Virus record (IMG/VR): IMGVR_UViG_3300003177_000021
Coordinates: 1-20,360 of that record
Reading direction: 5' to 3' (one strand)
Length of the DNA stretch: 20,360 nucleotides
Origin: a virus
The position numbers and the translations under genes were made by a program. Below are positions 244 to 18,498 of this stretch, piece by piece (the stretch's first letter is position 1; each line of letters starts with the position of its first letter). The notes under the pieces are model-generated. The model was not told where the DNA came from. It did no database searches and saw only the letters and a program-made list of their open reading frames with translations.

Positions 244-735
244 ATGTCCTTATATGACGAATTCATTTCAAAATACCCTGATGGTATCAGGGCTAACTTA
301 TTCAAAGTTTATATTGAAGATTTGCCACCTGTTTTTGTTAAAAGCATGACCTTGCCTGGTGTAACACTTAATACATATAGCCTGTTTTATAATCAATTCA
401 TAAAACATTATGTAACAAGCCAAGACTTTGACCCAATAACAATGAATTTTTATATAGATAGTGTTCAATTATCATCATTCAAAAAATTCATGATTGAATG
501 GAAGAATGAAATAGTTGATTGGCAAACTGGCATGTTAGGTTATAGGGATGATTATGTCAAAGACATTATAATAGATGTTTTAGACACTTCAGGTAATACA
601 AAATTACAGGCTAAACTTTTAAATAGTTACCCTGTTAGTATTGAAGCATTGAATTTTGATTATGATAATACAAATACATTTGTTACAATACCTGTTTCAT
701 TTAGGTTTGAAAATATTGAATATAAATTATTTTGA
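244..735 (+). CDS. T4 gp19-like tail tube protein
   Basis: A 163-residue protein, the same length as T4 gp19, expected to form (or cap) the inner tail tube through which DNA passes. The start is ATG 244, placed eight bases after AAGGAGGT (228-235); the frame is open back to 211 but lacks a better start. The sequence fits the family: an N-terminal region with SKYPDGIRANLFKV, then a central PPVFVKSMTLPGVTL stretch (tube proteins place strand-turn residues there), a segment IEWKNEIVDWQTG, and a C-terminal beta hairpin like that of the partial gene upstream. It heads a plus-strand operon and is followed 18 bases later by a hub gene. Two adjacent tube paralogs suggest one forms the tube and the other the baseplate-tube junction (T4 gp48/gp54 role); I cannot tell which is which. 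Confidence 0.7.
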   Translation: MSLYDEFISKYPDGIRANLFKVYIEDLPPVFVKSMTLPGVTLNTYSLFYNQFIKHYVTSQDFDPITMNFYIDSVQLSSFKKFMIEWKNEIVDWQTGMLGYRDDYVKDIIIDVLDTSGNTKLQAKLLNSYPVSIEALNFDYDNTNTFVTIPVSFRFENIEYKLF

Positions 736-753
736 TAGGAAGGAGGCTATTGA

Positions 754-1449
754 ATGTTACCAAAAATTGATTACCCTGTTTACAGTTGTGAGTTACCTAT
801 TGATAATCAAACAGTTAAATTCAGACCTTTTAATTTGAATGAAGAAAAGTTATTATTAACAGCAAAAGAAGAATCACCTTTGGCTTTTTTAACTCAAATT
901 GATAATGTTATCAAAAATTGTTTAATGAATAATATTGAAATCAAATATTTAGTTGATTTTATATATTTGTTCAACCATATTAGGACTAAATCAAAAGGTG
1001 AAAAGGTTGAAGGCACAATCACTTGTGAACATTGTAAAAAACCTACACCTGTTTCAATTGATTTGTTAGGTAGCCTGAAGGTTTTAAATCAGGCAAATAA
1101 AAAGAAACTTGTTCAAGTTAGTGATAATTTAGGCTTTGAAATTGTACCAATAAAAAAGTCAATAATACATGAAAATATTGACATAAATAATGAAATTGAT
1201 ATAGCTAAATATTCAATATTGTATAGTATTAACAAGGTAATTTACAATGAAAAAATATATGATGAATTTACCATTGATGAATTACAAACAAATATAATTG
1301 ATAATTTAACAACAAATCAGTTAGAAAAGGTTTTAACAGTAATAGCTGACATGCCTGCTTTAGTATTCAAATATGAAATAAAATGTATTAATTGTGGTAA
1401 TGTAATGAAATATGAGGAGAGTGATTTTGGGGCTTTTTTTACTTTGTAA
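754..1449 (+). CDS. T4 gp26-like baseplate hub / tail assembly protein
   Basis: A 231-residue protein matching the T4 baseplate hub gp26 family (Pfam T4_baseplate) in its N-terminal signature: LP (residues 14-15) followed by VKFRPFNLNEEKLLL (residues 21-35). It carries two CxxC pairs (C91/C94 and C211/C214) that could bind one zinc. Start ATG 754 follows AAGGAGG (740-746). In T4, gp26 acts with gp28 and gp51 in assembling the central hub; here it lies immediately before a tape-measure candidate, the position of an assembly chaperone. Near its 3' end the frame runs through a T-TTT-TTT heptamer (1434-1440), where a -1 shift would extend it into the next ORF to give a 288-residue product (229 + 59 residues) instead of 231. 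Assignment is by motif and position. Confidence 0.75.
   Translation: MLPKIDYPVYSCELPIDNQTVKFRPFNLNEEKLLLTAKEESPLAFLTQIDNVIKNCLMNNIEIKYLVDFIYLFNHIRTKSKGEKVEGTITCEHCKKPTPVSIDLLGSLKVLNQANKKKLVQVSDNLGFEIVPIKKSIIHENIDINNEIDIAKYSILYSINKVIYNEKIYDEFTIDELQTNIIDNLTTNQLEKVLTVIADMPALVFKYEIKCINCGNVMKYEESDFGAFFTL
1414..1440 (+). other. Probable programmed -1 ribosomal frameshift site
   Basis: The slippery heptamer T TTT TTT (1434-1440) is in the correct phase with the gp26-like gene (codons GCT TTT TTT). Slipping back one base gives TAC TTT GTA AAG TTC ATT ATG…, open through the 53-codon ORF to TGA 1617-1619. A purine-rich Shine-Dalgarno-like GAGGAGA lies at 1414-1420, 13 bases upstream of the heptamer, close to the spacing known to stimulate -1 shifting (as in E. 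coli dnaX). The zero-frame stop TAA is only two codons past the site. I see no strong downstream hairpin. Confidence 0.65.
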
Positions 1450-1457
1450 AGTTCATT

Positions 1458-1619
1458 ATGAATTACAAAACTTTGTATGATTGGTATGAAGATATTCATT
1501 TGTTTGTAAGGTACACTCAATTTAATTATAGCGAGGCTTTTGCTTTGTTACCTTATGAATTTGATATTTATACAGCACTTGAAATTAAATCACGAAAAGA
1601 GGAGAATAAAAAACAATGA
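1458..1619 (+). CDS. Small tail-assembly ORF in the gp51 / lambda-T position, probably a frameshift extension
   Basis: A 53-codon ORF (ATG 1458 to TGA 1617-1619) that fills the gap between the gp26-like and tape-measure genes. The protein is rich in aromatic residues (KTLYDWYEDIHLFVRYTQF…) with a hydrophobic/aromatic middle and a charged tail (KSRKEENKKQ). Its ATG lacks a convincing ribosome binding site (only TTTGTAAAGTTCATT precedes it), unlike nearly all other genes here, whereas it is in frame with a -1 slip at 1434-1440. It is therefore probably made as the tail of a gp26-like fusion, although independent translation by coupling is possible. It overlaps the next start (ATGA, 1616-1619). 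The position matches T4 gp51 (hub assembly catalyst) and the T part of lambda gpGT; there is no clear sequence match to either. Confidence 0.65.
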   Translation: MNYKTLYDWYEDIHLFVRYTQFNYSEAFALLPYEFDIYTALEIKSRKEENKKQ

Positions 1620-3769
1620 TACCTGTTTATCAAAATACAGTAGCAAATGATATACCTTTTCAACCAAATATTGATACATTGTTTTTAGTTAAATTAATAA
1701 AAAATACAACAAAAACTATTTTGAATACAATTGTTGGTGGTACTAAATTAGGTTTTAATGCTATTAAAACACCTTTTGTAATAGGTAATCAAAATTTCAA
1801 AAATAAAATTGAAACAACAAGATTAGGCAAATTATTAATTGAAACTGTTGAAAAGAAAAATGGTGAAAAGAATTTTGAAAAACAACACAATGAGTTTATT
1901 AAGAATATTTTAACAGGGTTAAATGAAAAGGTTGAAAAAATAACTGATAAATTTGATGGTTTGTTAAAATCAGTAAAGCAGTTACACAATGTTCAACCAT
2001 CAAATTTATCAAATGAAGTTTCAGAAAATGTTGAAAATAATGAGCAAACAAATACTGAAACAAATAATGTTATAAATAATGAAATACAATCAAAACAACC
2101 TGAATTGAAAGTGCCTGAAAGTTTTTTCAAAAAGCTAACAAAAACAGTTTTAGGTTCAAAGAAAGAAGATAGTGGTTTGTTGGGTTTACTTACAAACCCT
2201 GGTAAATGGGTTACAGGTTTAGGGTTAGCTATTGAAAATCCTTTCATTATGATGCTTGGTAGTAAATTAACTGATTTGATAAAACAACACAAAGAAGAAA
2301 AACAAATTTTTAAAGAACAATTGAAACTTCAACAAAAAGAATTAAAAGTTGAAACAAAACAAGTACAACAAAAAGAAATTGAAAAACAATTAACTGAAGA
2401 TGAAGAAGGGTTAAAAGAAATTAAAAAACGCAATAGAGAAGAACAACAAGTTGAAAAAACTGAAACTAAAGGTAATTTTATAAGCAAATTTTTAAAAAAT
2501 AAATTTCAGCAAAATGAAGAAAATGGCGGTTTTTTATCAGATTTATTTAATAATTTCATTCAATATAAAACAACAAGTATGATTTTAGGTAAATTTGGTG
2601 GTATTTTAAAGAAAATACCAGGTGTTGGTAAAATAGGTGGAATTTTGAAAAAGATACCTGGTTTGGGTAAAATATTTACAACAGTTGAAGAAGGTGCTGA
2701 AGTTGGTTCAACAGGTGGTATATTAACAAAAATAGGTGGATTATTCAGTAAAATAGGTGGTGTTAGTAAATTTTTGCCATTATTAGGTAAAGTATTTGGT
2801 GCTGTACAAATAGGAGAATTAGCTTATGGTGTTGGTAAAGGTATTTTATCAAACCCTGAAAAGTATAATGATGAAGGTTATGATAGTAAAAAACATGGGT
2901 TCTTTTCAAGGGTAATTCATGGTATATTAAGACCTGATAAAGCAATTGCTGGATTGATTACCAGCATAAAAGGTACTGGTGAATTATTATATGATAAATT
3001 ATTCAAAAAATCACCTGAAGAAAAATGGTATGAAAAAGCTATTAATATGGTTAAAAAACGGGTTTCAAAACAAGTGTGGCAATTGTATAGTAATTATTTT
3101 GAAAACAGTGAGCAACCTGTTGTTAGTTTAGTTAAACTATGGCGTGAAGGTAAGCTAAAACGTGAAATGAAAAACAAACATGCCTTTTTTGTATTACCAA
3201 GTGAATATAATGAAGATATAAAACAAACTCAAACAAAAGTTCAGCAAATTACTACACAACAAAATAAACAATTGAATGTAACAAAAGTTCAACAAACTCA
3301 ACAAAAACCAATACAAACATTGAAAACACAAAATAAACAGCTAAATGTAACAAAAGTTCAACAAACTACTGTACCGCAAAATACAACAATACCTACTGAT
3401 TTAAATACTGACAATTTAAATTTCAAACAACAAAAAGGTAGTGTTATCAATATAAAACCTAATACAAATAAAGCCATAAATTTATCAAGTGATAGTGCTA
3501 CTATAAATATTGTTCAACCTGATAAAAACTTATTGAATAATATACAAATAACTGAACCAGCAAAACAATATAATTTATCTCCGCAAGAATTGCCTAAACA
3601 TAATAAACAATTTGAAAATAATCAACCTATTATCATAAACAATAATAACACAACAAGCAATAATACTGGTTCATTAAAACTTGATAATGATTATGATGCT
3701 CAAGATAATTTGTTCATAAGAATGAAAAATCATTTTTATGAAAGCAAAATATTAAGGTTTGCTTGGTAA
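1616..3769 (+). CDS. Probable tail tape-measure protein (T4 gp29 position)
   Basis: A 717-residue protein starting at ATG 1616 behind GAGGAG (1599-1604). No enzymatic motif is evident. Visible regions are: an N-terminal basic/hydrophobic segment; a charged, probably coiled-coil stretch around residues 220-290, rich in K, E and Q; a glycine-rich hydrophobic region around residues 325-420 with a tandem 13-residue repeat (GGILKKIPGVGKI, GGILKKIPGLGKI); and a Q/N/T-rich C-terminal third with a repeated QNKQLNVTKVQQT unit. Long helical charge-rich sequence with hydrophobic glycine-rich segments, directly after an assembly-chaperone-like pair, is the pattern of tape-measure proteins, which set tail length and reach the cell envelope on injection. 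T4 gp29 has 590 residues. A different internal tail protein is the main alternative. Confidence 0.55.
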   Translation: MIPVYQNTVANDIPFQPNIDTLFLVKLIKNTTKTILNTIVGGTKLGFNAIKTPFVIGNQNFKNKIETTRLGKLLIETVEKKNGEKNFEKQHNEFIKNILTGLNEKVEKITDKFDGLLKSVKQLHNVQPSNLSNEVSENVENNEQTNTETNNVINNEIQSKQPELKVPESFFKKLTKTVLGSKKEDSGLLGLLTNPGKWVTGLGLAIENPFIMMLGSKLTDLIKQHKEEKQIFKEQLKLQQKELKVETKQVQQKEIEKQLTEDEEGLKEIKKRNREEQQVEKTETKGNFISKFLKNKFQQNEENGGFLSDLFNNFIQYKTTSMILGKFGGILKKIPGVGKIGGILKKIPGLGKIFTTVEEGAEVGSTGGILTKIGGLFSKIGGVSKFLPLLGKVFGAVQIGELAYGVGKGILSNPEKYNDEGYDSKKHGFFSRVIHGILRPDKAIAGLITSIKGTGELLYDKLFKKSPEEKWYEKAINMVKKRVSKQVWQLYSNYFENSEQPVVSLVKLWREGKLKREMKNKHAFFVLPSEYNEDIKQTQTKVQQITTQQNKQLNVTKVQQTQQKPIQTLKTQNKQLNVTKVQQTTVPQNTTIPTDLNTDNLNFKQQKGSVINIKPNTNKAINLSSDSATINIVQPDKNLLNNIQITEPAKQYNLSPQELPKHNKQFENNQPIIINNNNTTSNNTGSLKLDNDYDAQDNLFIRMKNHFYESKILRFAW
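2597..2674 (+). repeat. Tandem 39-bp in-frame repeat inside the tape-measure gene
   Basis: Two adjacent 39-base units (2597-2635, 2636-2674) encode GGILKKIPGVGKI and GGILKKIPGLGKI. The bases differ mainly at third positions, so the protein repeat is kept while the DNA drifts. Confidence 0.85.
3261..3367 (+). repeat. Direct repeat of a 38-bp unit in the Q/N/T-rich tail of the tape-measure gene
   Basis: Two near-identical 38-base copies (3261-3298 and 3330-3367, offset 69 bases = 23 codons) each encode NKQLNVTKVQQT. They differ in a few central bases. The segment is low-complexity and probably a flexible linker. Confidence 0.85.
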
Positions 3770-3835: not shown

Positions 3836-6800
3836 CTATTCACATTTTGACCAACCACAAGCTAAACACTTTTTGCACCCACCTTCTTTTATAACTTGTT
3901 TTTTACCACATTCTGGACATATTTCATATTCTTGTTGTTTCTTTTCATTTACTTGTATTTTTGCCATTGTTTTCTTTAAAGCACGACTAATGATATTTGG
4001 TAAATCATTTAACACTTCTGTTGATTTGTCAAGTGCTTTTGTAATTTCTTCCATGGGTAATTTATATCTCAAAGCTAATGATACCATTCTTGATAAAGCA
4101 TTCCAGTTAGCTTCCCTTTCTAATTTCAATTGTATTGATTTGTTACCTTTAGCATCTAAATATGCTTCCCAAGGTAATTTAGCAAATACCTCAACTGGGT
4201 AATTATCAACAACAGGTATTGTTACATAAACTTTTACCTTTTTCCAGTACATTGTATAAGTAAATGATTGTCTTTCTGGTGGTATAGGTAATTTTGTTAA
4301 TATTTGTTCAGTTTTGTTTTCATTATCTGATTTTGTTGATAAAACACCTTTTATTGAATTGTCCCTGAATATAGTTAAGCCTTTCAAACCGTTTGACCAA
4401 CCTTCTAATATCAAATCAGCAATTTCTTTTGGTGTTATATTTTCAGGTAAATTTATTGTTGATGATATACTGTCTGTAACCCACTTTTGTATTGTACCTT
4501 GTAATTTAACCCTATAATGAAAATCAATTTCATGTGCTTCCTTGTAATGATATTTCTTTTTCAATTCAGCTTCAGGTAAATTCAAATCTTCAGGTTTATT
4601 TTCAATCAGCCATTTCATTAATGGTAAGTGTAATACATTTGTTTCTTTGCCTAAAAGCCTACTCCTGCGTACATAAGCTATTTTGAATAATGGTTCAATA
4701 CCACTGGTACAATTATTTGCTATAATACTAATACTACCAGTTGGACCGTTATTCAACCATGCTATATTCCTAACACCATATTGTAATATATCATCGTATA
4801 TTTGTTTTGCCTGTTCAGCACTTTGAGTTAATTGAATATATTTTAATATACGTTGAACAACAGGTATTTTCAAAAACTTTTGTCTTTGGTCAGTTGTTTT
4901 CATTACTGGGCAACAACCTTTCATTTTAGCCATTTCAACATTGTGAATTAATAAAATTGAACTAATATTAGCAAATAATTTATCAACAAAATCAATTGTT
5001 TCAGGGTTATCATACTCATAACCTAACATTGCTAACATATCGGCTAATCCAGTGAATTCAATACCTACTTTCCTTAATTGTTTATCAACTTCATTTTGTA
5101 TAGGTATAGGGTGTTTGTTAATATCAATTGTATAATCACCAAATTCAAGGGCTACCTTGAGTGTTTCAGCTAATGAATTAAAATCAAGTGTAGCATTTTT
5201 TGTGAATGGGTTTTTAACAAATTGATACAAAACTACACCAATCAGGTTACAATTGCCTCCTTGGGACAAAATTTGCTCACCGCAATTCTCAGTATTTACA
5301 CAAACTATTGTATTTTCATCAACCTGATTTAGTTTTATCATAAAATTGTGAATATCATCTACAGTACCATTATAAACAGTATCTTTACCTATATATTTGA
5401 CTGAAACTACTTTATATGATAGTTCATTTTCAATCAATTTAGTTTGCTTACTTTCAGCACGTTTCAAACAATTTTCACTACAATAAGCTTGTTCACGTTG
5501 ATTAAATGGTACATAAAATTCTGAACCACAAACTTCACAATGTTTGATTACATATAATTTATCATTTAAAGTAAAGGTTTTTAAATCGGTAAGTTTATAA
5601 TCAATTGTTTTATTGTTTAATTTAAATGTTTGTTTACCATTAGACCAAATATTGTTTTGTTGTTTATAATATGCTATTTCATCACCTTCTTTTAATGTTT
5701 TAGTTTCCTTATAACTACCATCTTTCAACCTAAATTTATGATTACCAGTAACTTTGACAATACTACCATCATCAAATTTTACTTCATAAATATCTTCATT
5801 ATAACCAGTAACTCTTGGGTGTCTCATCATTTTAACAACAATATTACCATTTTCATCAACACCAAATACAGGCACATCTTTACCTTCTTCAGCTAACTGT
5901 TTTATAGATACTTCACCCCTACCATCTGCTACAATTATTAATGTATCACCAGTAACACATGGGTTTACACCTTTTGGTTCATATTCAGTACCCAATAAAT
6001 TACCCTGTGTTTCTTTTAATACAGTGTCCCAATATAAAACACCTGGTTCAGCACCTTGCCACATACCTTCAGCAATTGAATTCAAAATATCTTTAGCTTT
6101 CACTTTAGCATATGTTTTTATTTTGCCACCTTTGGCAAACCAATTTTTGATATTTCCATCCCAATGTTTATTATAAAAATCTTTATCAGCTTCGATATCA
6201 GGGTAAACTAATTCCCATTCTTCATCATTTTTAACTGCTTCAAAAAATTTATCACTCAACTTTACACTTATATTAGCATAATATACATTTGGTGTATAAT
6301 CATTGATGAAATCATAATCAAATACTTCTTTTGGGTTAGTTTTACATTTTATAAACAAGGGTAAATCAGGGTGCCAATCTTCAATTGTTATTATATGAGC
6401 ACCACGCCTACCATTTTGCCCAATAGTATTTGTATTTTCTGATAACAAAGGCATGAATGAAACAGCACCTGAACTTGTTTTTGCAGCATTGTTTACTTTA
6501 GCACCCCTTGGTCTCAAAATACTTATATCAGTGCCTACACCACCACGCCAACTATATGTTTTAGCTTGTTGTTTCATGAATTCATATATGCCATCCATGC
6601 TATCTTGTTCAATTGCTAAAAAGTAACAATTTGATAATGAAACCTTTTCTTCTTTGTTTTTATAGCCATATAAATTTGAACCAGCAGGTATGAGTTTCTT
6701 TCCAGCCATTAATCTTGGTACTTTTTGTAAATTATAACCTTCCCAAATTGATTTGTCTTCTTCTAAACCCTTTTTGTACCTATTAACAATATCTGACCAT

Positions 6801-6895
6801 GTTTTTTCACCTGAATGGCAATATTTCTTTTGAATGACTGATTGAATGAATTCTTCACTTTCTTTCAATAAGACATCAATTTCTTGCTTATCCAT
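3836..6895 (-). CDS. nrdJ: Adenosylcobalamin-dependent (class II) ribonucleotide reductase with an intein
   Basis: Reduces ribonucleotides to deoxyribonucleotides for phage DNA synthesis. The precursor has 1019 residues; removing a 225-residue intein (residues 313-537) leaves 794, normal for the family. Start ATG 6893-6895 follows AAGGAGGC at 6904-6911; an upstream in-frame ATG at 6931 has no such site. Class II signatures are SNCYF, the WRGGVGTDISILRPRGA block, SSGAVSFMPL, NGRRGAHIIT, the radical-bearing cysteine in NPCGE (restored only by splicing), GCCPVM and NNGPTGSISIIANNCTSGIEP. The C-terminus has the NrdJ cysteine tail (CPECGKK…GGCKKCLACGWSKC). No ATP-cone is evident. There is no accompanying small subunit, as expected for class II. 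It sits alone, opposite to the late genes on both sides, with its own promoter and a bidirectional terminator. Confidence 0.93.
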   Translation of the reverse strand: MDKQEIDVLLKESEEFIQSVIQKKYCHSGEKTWSDIVNRYKKGLEEDKSIWEGYNLQKVPRLMAGKKLIPAGSNLYGYKNKEEKVSLSNCYFLAIEQDSMDGIYEFMKQQAKTYSWRGGVGTDISILRPRGAKVNNAAKTSSGAVSFMPLLSENTNTIGQNGRRGAHIITIEDWHPDLPLFIKCKTNPKEVFDYDFINDYTPNVYYANISVKLSDKFFEAVKNDEEWELVYPDIEADKDFYNKHWDGNIKNWFAKGGKIKTYAKVKAKDILNSIAEGMWQGAEPGVLYWDTVLKETQGNLLGTEYEPKGVNPCVTGDTLIIVADGRGEVSIKQLAEEGKDVPVFGVDENGNIVVKMMRHPRVTGYNEDIYEVKFDDGSIVKVTGNHKFRLKDGSYKETKTLKEGDEIAYYKQQNNIWSNGKQTFKLNNKTIDYKLTDLKTFTLNDKLYVIKHCEVCGSEFYVPFNQREQAYCSENCLKRAESKQTKLIENELSYKVVSVKYIGKDTVYNGTVDDIHNFMIKLNQVDENTIVCVNTENCGEQILSQGGNCNLIGVVLYQFVKNPFTKNATLDFNSLAETLKVALEFGDYTIDINKHPIPIQNEVDKQLRKVGIEFTGLADMLAMLGYEYDNPETIDFVDKLFANISSILLIHNVEMAKMKGCCPVMKTTDQRQKFLKIPVVQRILKYIQLTQSAEQAKQIYDDILQYGVRNIAWLNNGPTGSISIIANNCTSGIEPLFKIAYVRRSRLLGKETNVLHLPLMKWLIENKPEDLNLPEAELKKKYHYKEAHEIDFHYRVKLQGTIQKWVTDSISSTINLPENITPKEIADLILEGWSNGLKGLTIFRDNSIKGVLSTKSDNENKTEQILTKLPIPPERQSFTYTMYWKKVKVYVTIPVVDNYPVEVFAKLPWEAYLDAKGNKSIQLKLEREANWNALSRMVSLALRYKLPMEEITKALDKSTEVLNDLPNIISRALKKTMAKIQVNEKKQQEYEICPECGKKQVIKEGGCKKCLACGWSKCE
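5285..5959 (-). other. Intein in the ribonucleotide reductase (225 residues)
   Basis: The insert begins with Cys (CVTGDTLIIV, block A), has a block B TGNH at residues 71-74 of the intein, a block F-like VYNGTVDDIHNFMI, and ends …VNTEN before the extein residue Cys. It interrupts NP|CGEQ, so the +1 nucleophile is the catalytic thiyl-radical cysteine itself. The penultimate residue is Glu rather than the usual His. No LAGLIDADG or HNH endonuclease motif is visible. Instead the middle (intein residues about 98-182) holds a four-cysteine finger CEVCGSEF…YCSENC. Confidence 0.92.
5468..5539 (-). other. Zinc finger (CxxC…CxxxC) inside the RNR intein
   Basis: Four cysteines at intein residues 141, 144, 160 and 164, with the pattern C-x2-C-G-x-E-F … Y-C-S-x-x-C, resemble the small finger that often accompanies phage HNH homing endonucleases. 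No HNH residues accompany it, so it may be the relic of an eroded endonuclease or a retained DNA- or RNA-binding module. Confidence 0.7.
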
Positions 6896-6930
6896 GATAA
6901 AAAGCCTCCTTCTGGCAATATTATTTTTCA

Positions 6931-6959
6931 ATTATATAAAATTTGTTTCAAAAAGTTAA
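6931..6959 (-). promoter_or_regulatory. Sigma-70-like promoter for the RNR gene
   Basis: On the minus strand TTAACT (6954-6959) is followed after 17 bases by TATAAT (6931-6936), with transcription expected near 6924, just before the AAGGAGGC site. The -35 box is followed by TTTT as in the other five minus-strand promoters. Confidence 0.75.
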
Positions 6960-7033: not shown

Positions 7034-7084
7034 TGTGTGAATAAATCTTATCAAAACAGCAAAAATCAAAAATGTGAGGTGTTC

Positions 7085-9073
7085 ATGGAACAAAAATTAT
7101 ATTACAACAACATTTATGGTTTGCGCAATACAAATACAAAATTACAATATACAGAAAAACAAATAAAAGAAATTATAAAATGTTCCAGTGATATTGAATA
7201 TTTTTTAGCTAATTATATAAAAGTTATTCACCCTGATAAAGGTTTAGTACCATTCAAGTTATATGATTTTCAGAAAGAAATAATCGAATATTACCAAAAA
7301 TATGATAGGGTGATAATTATGTCATCACGACAATGTATAACTGGTGATACTGAAATAGTTGTTAATGATGAAAAAACAACAATTGAACAATTATTCAAAA
7401 CTTATGATAAACCATCAAATAATGTAATATTTTTATATACAAAATTTATACAATCATTAGATATATCACACTTAAACAAATATATTGAAACACCATTTGG
7501 TAAAACAAAAATTTTAGAATTACACAAAACAATACCTTACAGAAAATACCGCATTGAGTTAGCTAATGGTTTAGTTTTAGAAGGTGCTCATAATCATGTT
7601 GTAATAACAGCATCAAATGAAGAAATTTATTTGAAAAATGCTTTAGGTGAAACTTTACAAACAATAAAAGGTAATAGTAAAGTTGTAAAGGTTATTGATT
7701 TAGGTATTGAAGAAAATATGTATGATATGACATTAGAAGATGAAAGAGGGCTTTATTATTCAAATGGTATTTTAAGTCATAATTCAGGCAAAACAATTTC
7801 AACGGTAGGTTATTTGTTACATTACATTTTATTTAACGAAGCTAAAAATGTAGCAATTTTGGCAAATAAAGGTGAAACAGCAAGATATATTTTAAGCATT
7901 TTGAAAGATATGTATGTAAATTTACCTATTTGGTTACAACAAGGTGTTGTTGTTTGGAATAAAACATTTATTGAACTTGAAAACAAATGTAAAGTTTTAA
8001 CAAGCAGTACCAGTGATAATGCATTGCGTGGTTATACGTGTAATATTTTATATGTTGATGAGACCGCTTTCATACCTAACTGGAATACTTTCTTTTCAAG
8101 TGTTTATCCTATTATAAGTGCTGGTAAAGATACTAAAATCATATTCAGTTCAACACCACTTGGTTTAAATCATTTTGCTAAATTATGGTTTGAAGCAGAA
8201 CAAGGGTTAAATGGTTTTAAACCTTTGAAAATACCATATACAAAAGTGCCTGGTAGGGATGAAAAATGGGCTGAAAAAATCAGGAAAGAAATAGGTGAAC
8301 GCAGGTTCAAGCAAGAATATGAATTACAATTTTTAGGTAGTGATAATACTTTATTATCACCTGAAGCATTGAATAGTCTATATTCAAAGAAACCAATAAG
8401 GACAGACGCTGATGATAATATTTTGATATATAAAGATCCTATAGAAAATCACATTTATATTTTAATTATTGATATAGCTCATGGTAAAGGGCAAGATTAC
8501 TCAACAATACAGGTTATTGATATAACAAATCAACCATTTGAACAGGTAGCAGTTTTCAGGAGTAATACAGTACCAACAAATGTATTACCATTTTATATAA
8601 ACTATTTGGGTAATTTATATAATGAAGGACTTGTTGTAGTTGAGAATAATACTGGTGAAGACGTTTTGTATATATTGAATTATGAATATGAATACCCAAA
8701 TATATTTTATTGGAACAAAGAATTTGGTTTAAAAACCACAAAGAAAGTAAAACAAAAAGGTAACAGTCATTTGAAATATTTAATTGAAAATAAACAGTTA
8801 TTGATATATGATTTTGATACAATACATGAATTAAGTGTTTATGCTTTACATGGTAATACTTATCAAGCTATAAAAGGTGAACATGATGATTTAGTCATGC
8901 CTTTAGTATTATTTGCTTATATTGTTGGTGATAAACAATTAAATGAATATTATATTAATCAAGAAGTATATAAACCACCTAAACAAATTGAACATGATAA
9001 CTTTAAATTCATTGGTTTTTATACAAATGGCGAAGAAGTTGAAAAATTGAGCATTGAAAAGGAGGAATTTTAA
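7085..9073 (+). CDS. Large terminase subunit (T4 gp17-like) with an intein
   Basis: The packaging motor: an ATPase that drives DNA into the prohead plus a nuclease that cuts genome-length DNA. The precursor has 662 residues; removing the 150-residue intein (residues 84-233) leaves 512. The N-terminus resembles gp17 (LANYIKVIHPDKGLVPFKLYDFQ). After splicing, Walker A reads SSRQSGKT; Walker B is ILYVDE, and SSTPLG is the coupling motif. The C-terminal RNase H-like nuclease shows IIDIAHGKGQDYS, VVVENN and HDDLV, which supply the expected acidic residues. ATG 7085 is chosen because GAGGTG (7076-7081) precedes it, although the spacing is short; the frame is open to a GTG at 7037 with no ribosome binding site. 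The gp15-like gene starts right after its stop. Confidence 0.93.
   Translation: MEQKLYYNNIYGLRNTNTKLQYTEKQIKEIIKCSSDIEYFLANYIKVIHPDKGLVPFKLYDFQKEIIEYYQKYDRVIIMSSRQCITGDTEIVVNDEKTTIEQLFKTYDKPSNNVIFLYTKFIQSLDISHLNKYIETPFGKTKILELHKTIPYRKYRIELANGLVLEGAHNHVVITASNEEIYLKNALGETLQTIKGNSKVVKVIDLGIEENMYDMTLEDERGLYYSNGILSHNSGKTISTVGYLLHYILFNEAKNVAILANKGETARYILSILKDMYVNLPIWLQQGVVVWNKTFIELENKCKVLTSSTSDNALRGYTCNILYVDETAFIPNWNTFFSSVYPIISAGKDTKIIFSSTPLGLNHFAKLWFEAEQGLNGFKPLKIPYTKVPGRDEKWAEKIRKEIGERRFKQEYELQFLGSDNTLLSPEALNSLYSKKPIRTDADDNILIYKDPIENHIYILIIDIAHGKGQDYSTIQVIDITNQPFEQVAVFRSNTVPTNVLPFYINYLGNLYNEGLVVVENNTGEDVLYILNYEYEYPNIFYWNKEFGLKTTKKVKQKGNSHLKYLIENKQLLIYDFDTIHELSVYALHGNTYQAIKGEHDDLVMPLVLFAYIVGDKQLNEYYINQEVYKPPKQIEHDNFKFIGFYTNGEEVEKLSIEKEEF
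7334..7783 (+). other. Mini-intein in the terminase Walker A motif (150 residues)
   Basis: The insert starts CITGDTEIVV, has a block B-like GAHNH around intein residues 84-88, and ends NGILSHN with the standard His-Asn; the next residue is Ser (SGKT). It splits the ATP-binding loop as SSRQ|SGKT, so the ATPase cannot work until splicing. At 150 residues it has only splicing domains and no endonuclease. Confidence 0.93.
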
Positions 9074-17085: not shown

Positions 17086-18498
17086 TTAAAATAAACCTTT
17101 TTCATCAACAGTCATTAACTCCATTAAAAATGCTTTTATATTGATAGTTTGATCAGCTACAAAATAACTTTCATAAGCGTATTTGTTTATTAATATAATT
17201 AACCAGCCTAAATAATCTTTTTTCATACCTTGCTTTATTAGTTCAGGTATTTGCTTTTCAAACCAGCTATAAAAATTACCAGCATCCATATTTAATGCAG
17301 CAACATATTTACATAATTTTGAATAATTCTTTGATTTAATTACATCAATTAAATTGATTAATTGAGTTTCTTCTTGAAACATCAAATTGCGTTTATTTAA
17401 CATATCATTATCAGCTAACTTTTGAGTTTCAATTAGTATTTTTCTCATATCAGGGAAGTATTTTTGTATGAGTTTTTTAAGATTTTCTTTGGTATATTTT
17501 ACTTGTTCTTGTTCACAAATTGTAATCAAGCGTTTCAATAGTTGTTTTTTCATTGACAAAATTTCTTGTTTGTCAGTGAATATAAAATCAATTATTTCAA
17601 CCCTTGATTTCAGTGGTTCAATTATACGTTCTTTATGATTAGTTAAAAATATAAATGAACACACTTTAGAATGTGTTTCCAATACAGTTTTGAGGCTATC
17701 CTGTGCGTTAGGTGATAAACGGTCGCAATTGTGTGTTATTATACCATTTTTAGTTATAAAAGTATGATTTTTGTAAACAGTAAGGTTTCTTACTTTTTTC
17801 TTGCCAATAGGCTTTATTGATTTGATTTCAAATTCTTCAATTTTTTCAATATTAGTTTGTGATGAAACAATTATTTCACCTTCTTTTAAACCATCTCTAA
17901 TACTTTTTTCTACAATTGTACTATCTTTTTGCCTAACAAGGAATGGGTGTTCTTCTGTTACTTGAATTGTTCTACCATCTTCTAATTCAATTTCATACAC
18001 ATAATCTTCTTTATCAGATATTATTTCACCTTTGTCAATTTCTATTTGTTCAGTATTCATATTGAAAGAAACAATTTCATAAACTTTACCTAATTCAAAA
18101 TCTTTCAAAGCTAATGGTTTTATACCTTCAGGCGTATTTACCAAAACTTCTTCATCTTCTGCTAAACATTCATCCATAATTACAATTTTCTTTGTATTAT
18201 CAAATGATTTTGTTGAAGCAAATTGTATCACTTCTTGCCTAACAACATCAATTGAAGTATTCAATGAACCATTTATATATAACGTTTTAGCTTCAAATTC
18301 TTTTGCTAATACATAAGCACTACTTGTTTTACCTATACCTGCTTGGCCATTGAATAACAAATTTGGTATTTGTTGACGTTCAACAATTTGTTTTAACCTT
18401 TGTTTTAAGTTATTAGGTAAAATCAATTCATCAATTGTTGTTGGTCTGTATTTCAATGCCCAAATATAATTGTTACCTTCTAATTGCTGTATGCTCAT
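17086..18498 (-). CDS. Clamp-loader ATPase (T4 gp44-like) with an intein
   Basis: AAA+ ATPase that loads the sliding clamp on primed DNA. The precursor has 470 residues; removing a 147-residue intein (residues 111-257) leaves 323, close to T4 gp44 (319). Motifs are an N-terminal WALKYRP, Walker A GQAGIGKT (51-58), Walker B IVIMDECD (restored only by splicing at DE|CD), sensor-1 FIFLTNH and the arginine-finger LKSRVEIIDF. ATG 18496-18498 follows GGAGG (18504-18508). It begins the conserved block gp44–gp62–regA, interrupted by one small membrane gene. The DNA polymerase and clamp genes are not in the window. Confidence 0.93.
   Translation of the reverse strand: MSIQQLEGNNYIWALKYRPTTIDELILPNNLKQRLKQIVERQQIPNLLFNGQAGIGKTSSAYVLAKEFEAKTLYINGSLNTSIDVVRQEVIQFASTKSFDNTKKIVIMDECLAEDEEVLVNTPEGIKPLALKDFELGKVYEIVSFNMNTEQIEIDKGEIISDKEDYVYEIELEDGRTIQVTEEHPFLVRQKDSTIVEKSIRDGLKEGEIIVSSQTNIEKIEEFEIKSIKPIGKKKVRNLTVYKNHTFITKNGIITHNCDRLSPNAQDSLKTVLETHSKVCSFIFLTNHKERIIEPLKSRVEIIDFIFTDKQEILSMKKQLLKRLITICEQEQVKYTKENLKKLIQKYFPDMRKILIETQKLADNDMLNKRNLMFQEETQLINLIDVIKSKNYSKLCKYVAALNMDAGNFYSWFEKQIPELIKQGMKKDYLGWLIILINKYAYESYFVADQTINIKAFLMELMTVDEKGLF
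17728..18168 (-). other. Mini-intein in the clamp-loader Walker B motif (147 residues)
   Basis: The insert starts CLAEDEEVLV, has block B VTEEHPF, block F VRNLTVYKNHTFIT, and ends NGIITHN with the standard His-Asn before extein Cys. It lies at DE|CD, so the ATPase is inactive until splicing. No endonuclease domain is present. Confidence 0.93.

Follow-up and report, generated by a model that had tools for sequence, protein, structure and literature searches.

Does a T4-like phage use a programmed -1 ribosomal frameshift to make two tail-assembly chaperones from one gene? The question is raised by the gp26-like gene of IMG/VR virus record IMGVR_UViG_3300003177_000021, of which positions 1 to 20,360 were analysed; this whole stretch of 20,360 nucleotides, in which the T4 core genes gp15, gp32, regA, gp33-like and gp44-like are present, is referred to here as the window. 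The -1 frameshift of lambda gpG/gpGT, together with its counterparts in other long-tailed phages, was reportedly described by Xu et al. in 2004. G-T frameshifting is called widely conserved "except T4" in a passage of one review (PMC5009743). The original prediction held that a -1 slip fuses the gp26-like protein to an ORF at the position of gp51, just before the tape measure gene, and we assign this reading a probability of about 0.93.

The features of the locus are listed in Table 1. The gp26-like ORF matches PF12322 (T4_baseplate; E = 3e-32, model positions 3-218 of 219, above the cut-off) and phrog_150 (E = 8e-31), and a search of its own genome agrees with the gp26 family assignment. The -1 frame read from the slip site matches phrog_634, "baseplate hub assembly catalyst", with a modest score (E = 2.7e-7) over model positions 56-112 of 121. 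The 53-residue part, whose comparison with gp51 had been proposed as a check, gave a profile match to phrog_634 by itself (E = 3.6e-6), and extending it by the six codons that precede ATG 1458 raised the score by 3.6 bits and moved the start of the match four positions earlier. The match of the window's gp51 part begins near position 56-60 of the 121-position profile, the first half of which overlaps the gp26-like part of T4 gp51 (match to T4 gp51 147-246). The pair lies between a gp19-like tube gene and a long ORF taken as the tape measure from its position alone; this 717-aa ORF had no family match in profile searches and no tblastn match to the related loci, their tape measures included. 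The window gp26 also carries two CxxC pairs, C91xxC94 and C213xxC216, that resemble a zinc ribbon; they are found in several other lineages and are degraded in most cyanophage versions.

Table 1. Features of the predicted chaperone locus and probable inteins in the window.
Feature	Position	Strand	Evidence
gp19-like tail-tube paralogue, upstream of chaperone	244-735	+	phrog_45 tail tube, E = 5e-21; PF06841, E = 1e-5
gp26-like ORF, predicted short 0-frame chaperone form, 231 aa, ending GAFFTL before the stop	754-1449	+	PF12322, phrog_150
Shine-Dalgarno-like GAGGAGA, possible upstream stimulator	1414-1420	+	Sequence; enrichment and spacing in relatives
Slippery heptamer T TTT TTT	1434-1440	+	In phase with gp26; T TTT TTN at the site in 270/270 related loci
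-1 extension, 59 codons and stop, gp51 part of the predicted fusion, ...GAFF/YFVKFIMNYKTLYDW...	1440-1619	+	phrog_634
Candidate stimulatory hairpin, TTTGTAA..TTACAAA, inner TTCA/TGAA, weak in the window	1443-1469	+	
53-codon ORF within the -1 extension; ATG 8 nt past the gp26 stop; no ribosome binding site	1458-1619	+	
717-aa ORF at tape-measure position, overlapping the gp51 stop (ATGA)	1616-3769	+	Position and length only
Probable intein in ribonucleotide reductase with TSCPD domain	3836-6931, aa 332-532	-	
Probable intein in large terminase	7037-9073, about aa 100-249	+	Weak match
Probable intein in gp44-like clamp loader	17086-18498, aa 139-257	-	

The 3′ end of the gp26-like ORF reads GGG GCT TTT TTT ACT TTG TAA, and this codon order places T TTT TTT in phase as X XXY YYZ, as had been predicted; all coordinates check. 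After a slip back of one base the next codon is TAC (1440-1442), and 59 codons are open from 1440 to 1616, ahead of a stop at 1617-1619. The sequence thus bears out the predicted -1 frame, with the 53-codon ORF contained in it. The heptamer is the only run of at least seven Ts on either strand of the window, and the plus strand holds no A7. Such a site might still reflect chance, with an incidental T run in a low-GC genome falling where two adjacent genes overlap, and in-phase U6/A6 heptamers are indeed common in the AT-rich window, whose ORFs contain 15. A -1 run of more than 14 codons follows just two of them, namely T TTT TTT at 1434-1440 and one A AAA AAG within the gp33-like gene. When the codons of the gp26-like ORF were shuffled, 2.3% of trials placed T TTT TTN in phase among the final 12 codons, a figure for the heptamer alone in which the 59-codon open -1 frame is not yet required. 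The A AAA AAG of the gp33-like gene (12138-12132, minus strand) was set aside. A -1 slip there would join a 196-aa ORF (12105-11515), and because that ORF has its own Shine-Dalgarno-like site, the heptamer is probably a chance occurrence.

The chance reading is already refuted by comparative data. Single-protein IMG/VR scans with the window gp26 and terminase found no relatives, and alignments were therefore used for the IMG/VR searches. Three profile scans, in which the heptamer was not used, gave 175 loci, and a fourth, anchored on the window, added 78. The full comparison set comprises 270 loci (261 without re-fetched records) in 188 lineages below 80% DNA identity. The heptamer was in phase in 175/175 loci of the first three scans and in 78/78 of the fourth; at least 35 open -1 codons follow the gp26 stop in 172 of the 175, and the remaining three contigs carry only 8-15. 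The original prediction had called for a comparison of related genomes, and across the whole set the C-terminal end of gp26 holds T TTT TTN in phase, with the -1 frame leading into gp51, in 270/270 loci and 188/188 lineages. The per-lineage chance of T TTT TTN given the amino acids is 0.43, and at internal Phe-Phe pairs of the same genes this sequence occurs in 14/182 cases. The second Phe codon at the site is TTC in 118 of 180 lineages with TTT or TTC, vs. 30% in gene bodies (p = 2e-21). This conservation, the homology of the -1 frame to gp51 and the missing start codons described below stand against chance, to which we give practically no weight.

Annotated isolates agree with the metagenomic loci. 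In 16 of them (cyanophages, pelagiphages, a Methylophilales phage, phages of Sinorhizobium, Rhizobium and Agrobacterium, Stenotrophomonas DLP6, and Vibrio D527), the end of gp26 without exception carries T TTT TT[TCG] in phase, 0-8 codons ahead of the stop, with the -1 frame continuing into gp51. The heptamer is also present in the KVP40-type vibriophage R11Z, which is classified in Straboviridae. The window itself is divergent. Its gp26 reaches at best 35% identity to any relative, a quick tree groups it on a long branch with three metagenomic phages (support 100), and searches of IMG/VR and INPHARED with the proteins tried turned up no close relative.

In Escherichia coli, the -1 signal of dnaX consists of a Shine-Dalgarno-like motif about 10 nt upstream, a slippery heptamer and a downstream stem-loop. 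The relatives of the window carry the same classical bacterial cassette, with a Shine-Dalgarno-like motif upstream of the heptamer and, about 8 nt beyond it, a stem-loop under selection, although the dnaX heptamer is A AAA AAG and its product is a shortened clamp-loader subunit, as opposed to the extended protein predicted here. In 83% of loci a Shine-Dalgarno-like stretch matching over 4 nt or more is present in the 24 nt upstream, most often at a spacing of 8-10 nt from the heptamer. At this site GAG outnumbers GAA by 78:29, against 1155:2968. Downstream, the 55 nt that start 6 nt past the heptamer have a mean fold z of -1.72 relative to dinucleotide shuffles (n = 132), while three control stretches gave -0.34, -0.01, and -0.17. 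When the -1 frame was recoded synonymously, codons 2-18 had a mean z of -1.59 and later stretches -0.18 and -0.40; since the fold goes beyond that of synonymous recoding, selection acts on the RNA structure over and above the protein. Base pairing peaks 8-15 and 26-33 nt past the heptamer. A single conserved hairpin register was sought among the relatives and not found, as the stem register varies by lineage, and no single consensus pairing is therefore claimed.

In the window these flanking signals are less typical. The predicted GAGGAGA is where it was said to be, at 1414-1420, and its distance of about 13-14 nt from the heptamer exceeds the usual 8-10 nt of the relatives. The 27-nt candidate hairpin has a fold z of -1.7; 12/200 shuffles fold equally well, and p is about 0.05 against synonymous recoding. 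We count the weak hairpin, the distant GAGGAGA and the window's want of close relatives against the frameshift.

The T run could also act on RNA polymerase, which would slip on it and produce mRNAs with an extra or a missing U. Polymerase slippage needs about nine or more Ts. There are seven in the window and runs of 7-9 in 73/270 loci, but just six in the other 197/270, usually closed by C, which is short for polymerase slippage. Moreover, the codon phase T TTT TTN is kept without exception, and RNA structure downstream of the run implicates the ribosome. We consider transcriptional slippage extremely improbable.

A third alternative concerns how gp51 is started. Ribosomes that terminate at 1447-1449 could resume at ATG 1458 and make a free, small gp51, and we count this ATG, too, against the frameshift. 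Its spacing from the gp26 stop is workable for reinitiation, and some ATG, GTG, or TTG is found among the first seven -1 codons in 83/188 lineages. The other 105/188 have none (76/188 have none in the first eleven), so gp51 lacks a usable start there and reinitiation cannot be the shared mechanism. No Shine-Dalgarno sequence precedes ATG 1458, consistent with the claim that the small ORF lacks a ribosome binding site, and a Shine-Dalgarno match (4 nt at normal distance) was found at candidate gp51 ATG or GTG codons in 0/75 lineages; the same test was positive at gp26 starts in 104/188, those starts being only approximate. Reinitiation also leaves the universal heptamer and the continuous gp51 of T4 unexplained, and we judge it highly improbable. 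In S-RS29, P-SSM3, Melnitz-3, HTVC008M, and Mosig, either no start codon is present at the conserved beginning of gp51 or annotation places the start within the conserved part, and in S-SSM4 no gp51 is annotated. The gene is often unannotated in public cyanophage genomes (e.g., NC_031900.1, NC_062735.1, HQ316583.1), apparently because it has no start codon, and the frameshift explains this frequent lack of annotation.

What the data show is the anatomy of the locus, its homology and conservation, and, in relatives, RNA signals under selection. The preferred reading, a programmed -1 frameshift, is set out here by analogy with lambda G/GT and T4 gp26/gp51, from which the slippage itself, its rate and the chaperone role are inferred. 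Most ribosomes would stay in the gp26-like frame until its stop at 1447, giving the short form. With tRNA-Phe paired to both TTT codons of the heptamer, a smaller share would slip back one base and read 59 more codons, yielding a long form composed of a gp26-like domain and a gp51-like tail. On the model of lambda gpG/gpGT, the domain shared by both forms would cover the tape measure, and recruitment of tube or hub subunits would fall to the minor tail extension.

The lambda system resembles the window in having its -1 slip near the 3′ end of the chaperone gene, between tube and tape measure, and in producing a short and a long form; its heptamer differs from T TTT TTT. Sequence homology between the window gp26 and lambda gpG was not detectable (hhalign probability 0.1%, E = 0.47). 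The AlphaFold model of the window gp26 (pLDDT 92) matches viral gp26 and baseplate hub proteins with E-values down to 7e-16. Foldseek returned nothing significant for it in the PDB; among the matches listed, 3FGX (probability 0.57) and HK97 gp13, 2OB9 (0.44), had by far the highest probabilities, with E about 2. Both are described as TACs in a passage of PMC9603447. For T4 gp51, no solved structure matches were obtained. The suggested link between gp26/gp51 and the G/GT family stands for layout, mechanism, and probably fold, and fails at the level of sequence, where the comparison with lambda gpG finds nothing.

T4 gp26 and gp51 are known as hub-assembly chaperones, gp51 being essential and absent from the virion. 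PF12322 is found in both gp26 and gp51 of T4, MX01, Phi1, and Thanatos and also in gp51 of 44RR, and the C-terminal part of gp51 matches phrog_634 in all five phages. When aligned to the frameshift products, the gp51 proteins of these phages continue across the junction, and gp26 ends at it. The gp26 and gp51 of T4 and its near relatives are paralogues, with gp51 as the fused long form. The two systems share PF12322 in both proteins and a full-length alignment of T4 gp51 with the fusion; unlike those of the window, the T4 genes are separate, lie on opposite strands and lack the heptamer. T4 gp26 retains the Phe-Phe pair (TTC TTT GAG), as does MX01, but the heptamer is lost. T4 itself does not use the shift, and its two forms are separate genes. 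The predicted use of the G/GT layout by T4-like phages accordingly applies to the window and to relatives outside the core Straboviridae, and not to T4.

A quick tree places the two Straboviridae groups together, opposite all frameshift lineages (support 89), which is compatible with one duplication giving rise to Straboviridae gp26 and gp51. We think it quite likely that the three-part cassette is ancestral in T4-like phages and was replaced once, in the core Straboviridae, by a duplication after which the slippery site decayed. The cassette would have been retained in cyanophages, pelagiphages, rhizobial phages, KVP40-type vibriophages, and the lineage of the window, and in the core Straboviridae gp26 would correspond to the short form and gp51 to a hard-wired long form.

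Much of this idea has been put forward before. Passages in two papers (PMC10885494, PMC12846349) attribute the role of gp26 and gp51 as tail-assembly chaperones to Vladimirov, Gautam & Davidson 2022. According to the first, citing the same work, some T4-like phages do without frameshifting and encode the short protein and the long fusion in separate genes; the second, also crediting it, treats poly-T tracts as known -1 signals in T4-like TAC-N genes. The connection of gp26/gp51 with tail-assembly chaperones is consequently not new. As described in those passages, the system has the same two genes, with a short form and a long form carrying the gp51 extension, and what sets the window apart is its divergent lineage, with no more than 35% identity in gp26. 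Going by these passages, the idea of a frameshifted gp26/gp51 chaperone was already known, and the window adds a new, divergent and strongly supported case to it. The extent of the comparison and the RNA-signal statistics come from the present analysis and may or may not overlap with Vladimirov et al. 2022.

The frameshift also bears on older observations. A passage of PMC3037559 reports that gp51 of cyanophages and marine vibriophages is without its first ~200 residues; on the reading favored here, these "missing" residues are gp26, joined by the -1 slip. Most of the apparent exception of T4 to the frameshift rule of long-tailed phages is thereby removed. Because the pair is a frameshift product in most lineages and two genes in T4, the ratio of short to long chaperone becomes directly testable in T4. 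Apart from the tail locus, the window contains three probable inteins, in none of which an endonuclease domain was detected; their positions are given in Table 1.
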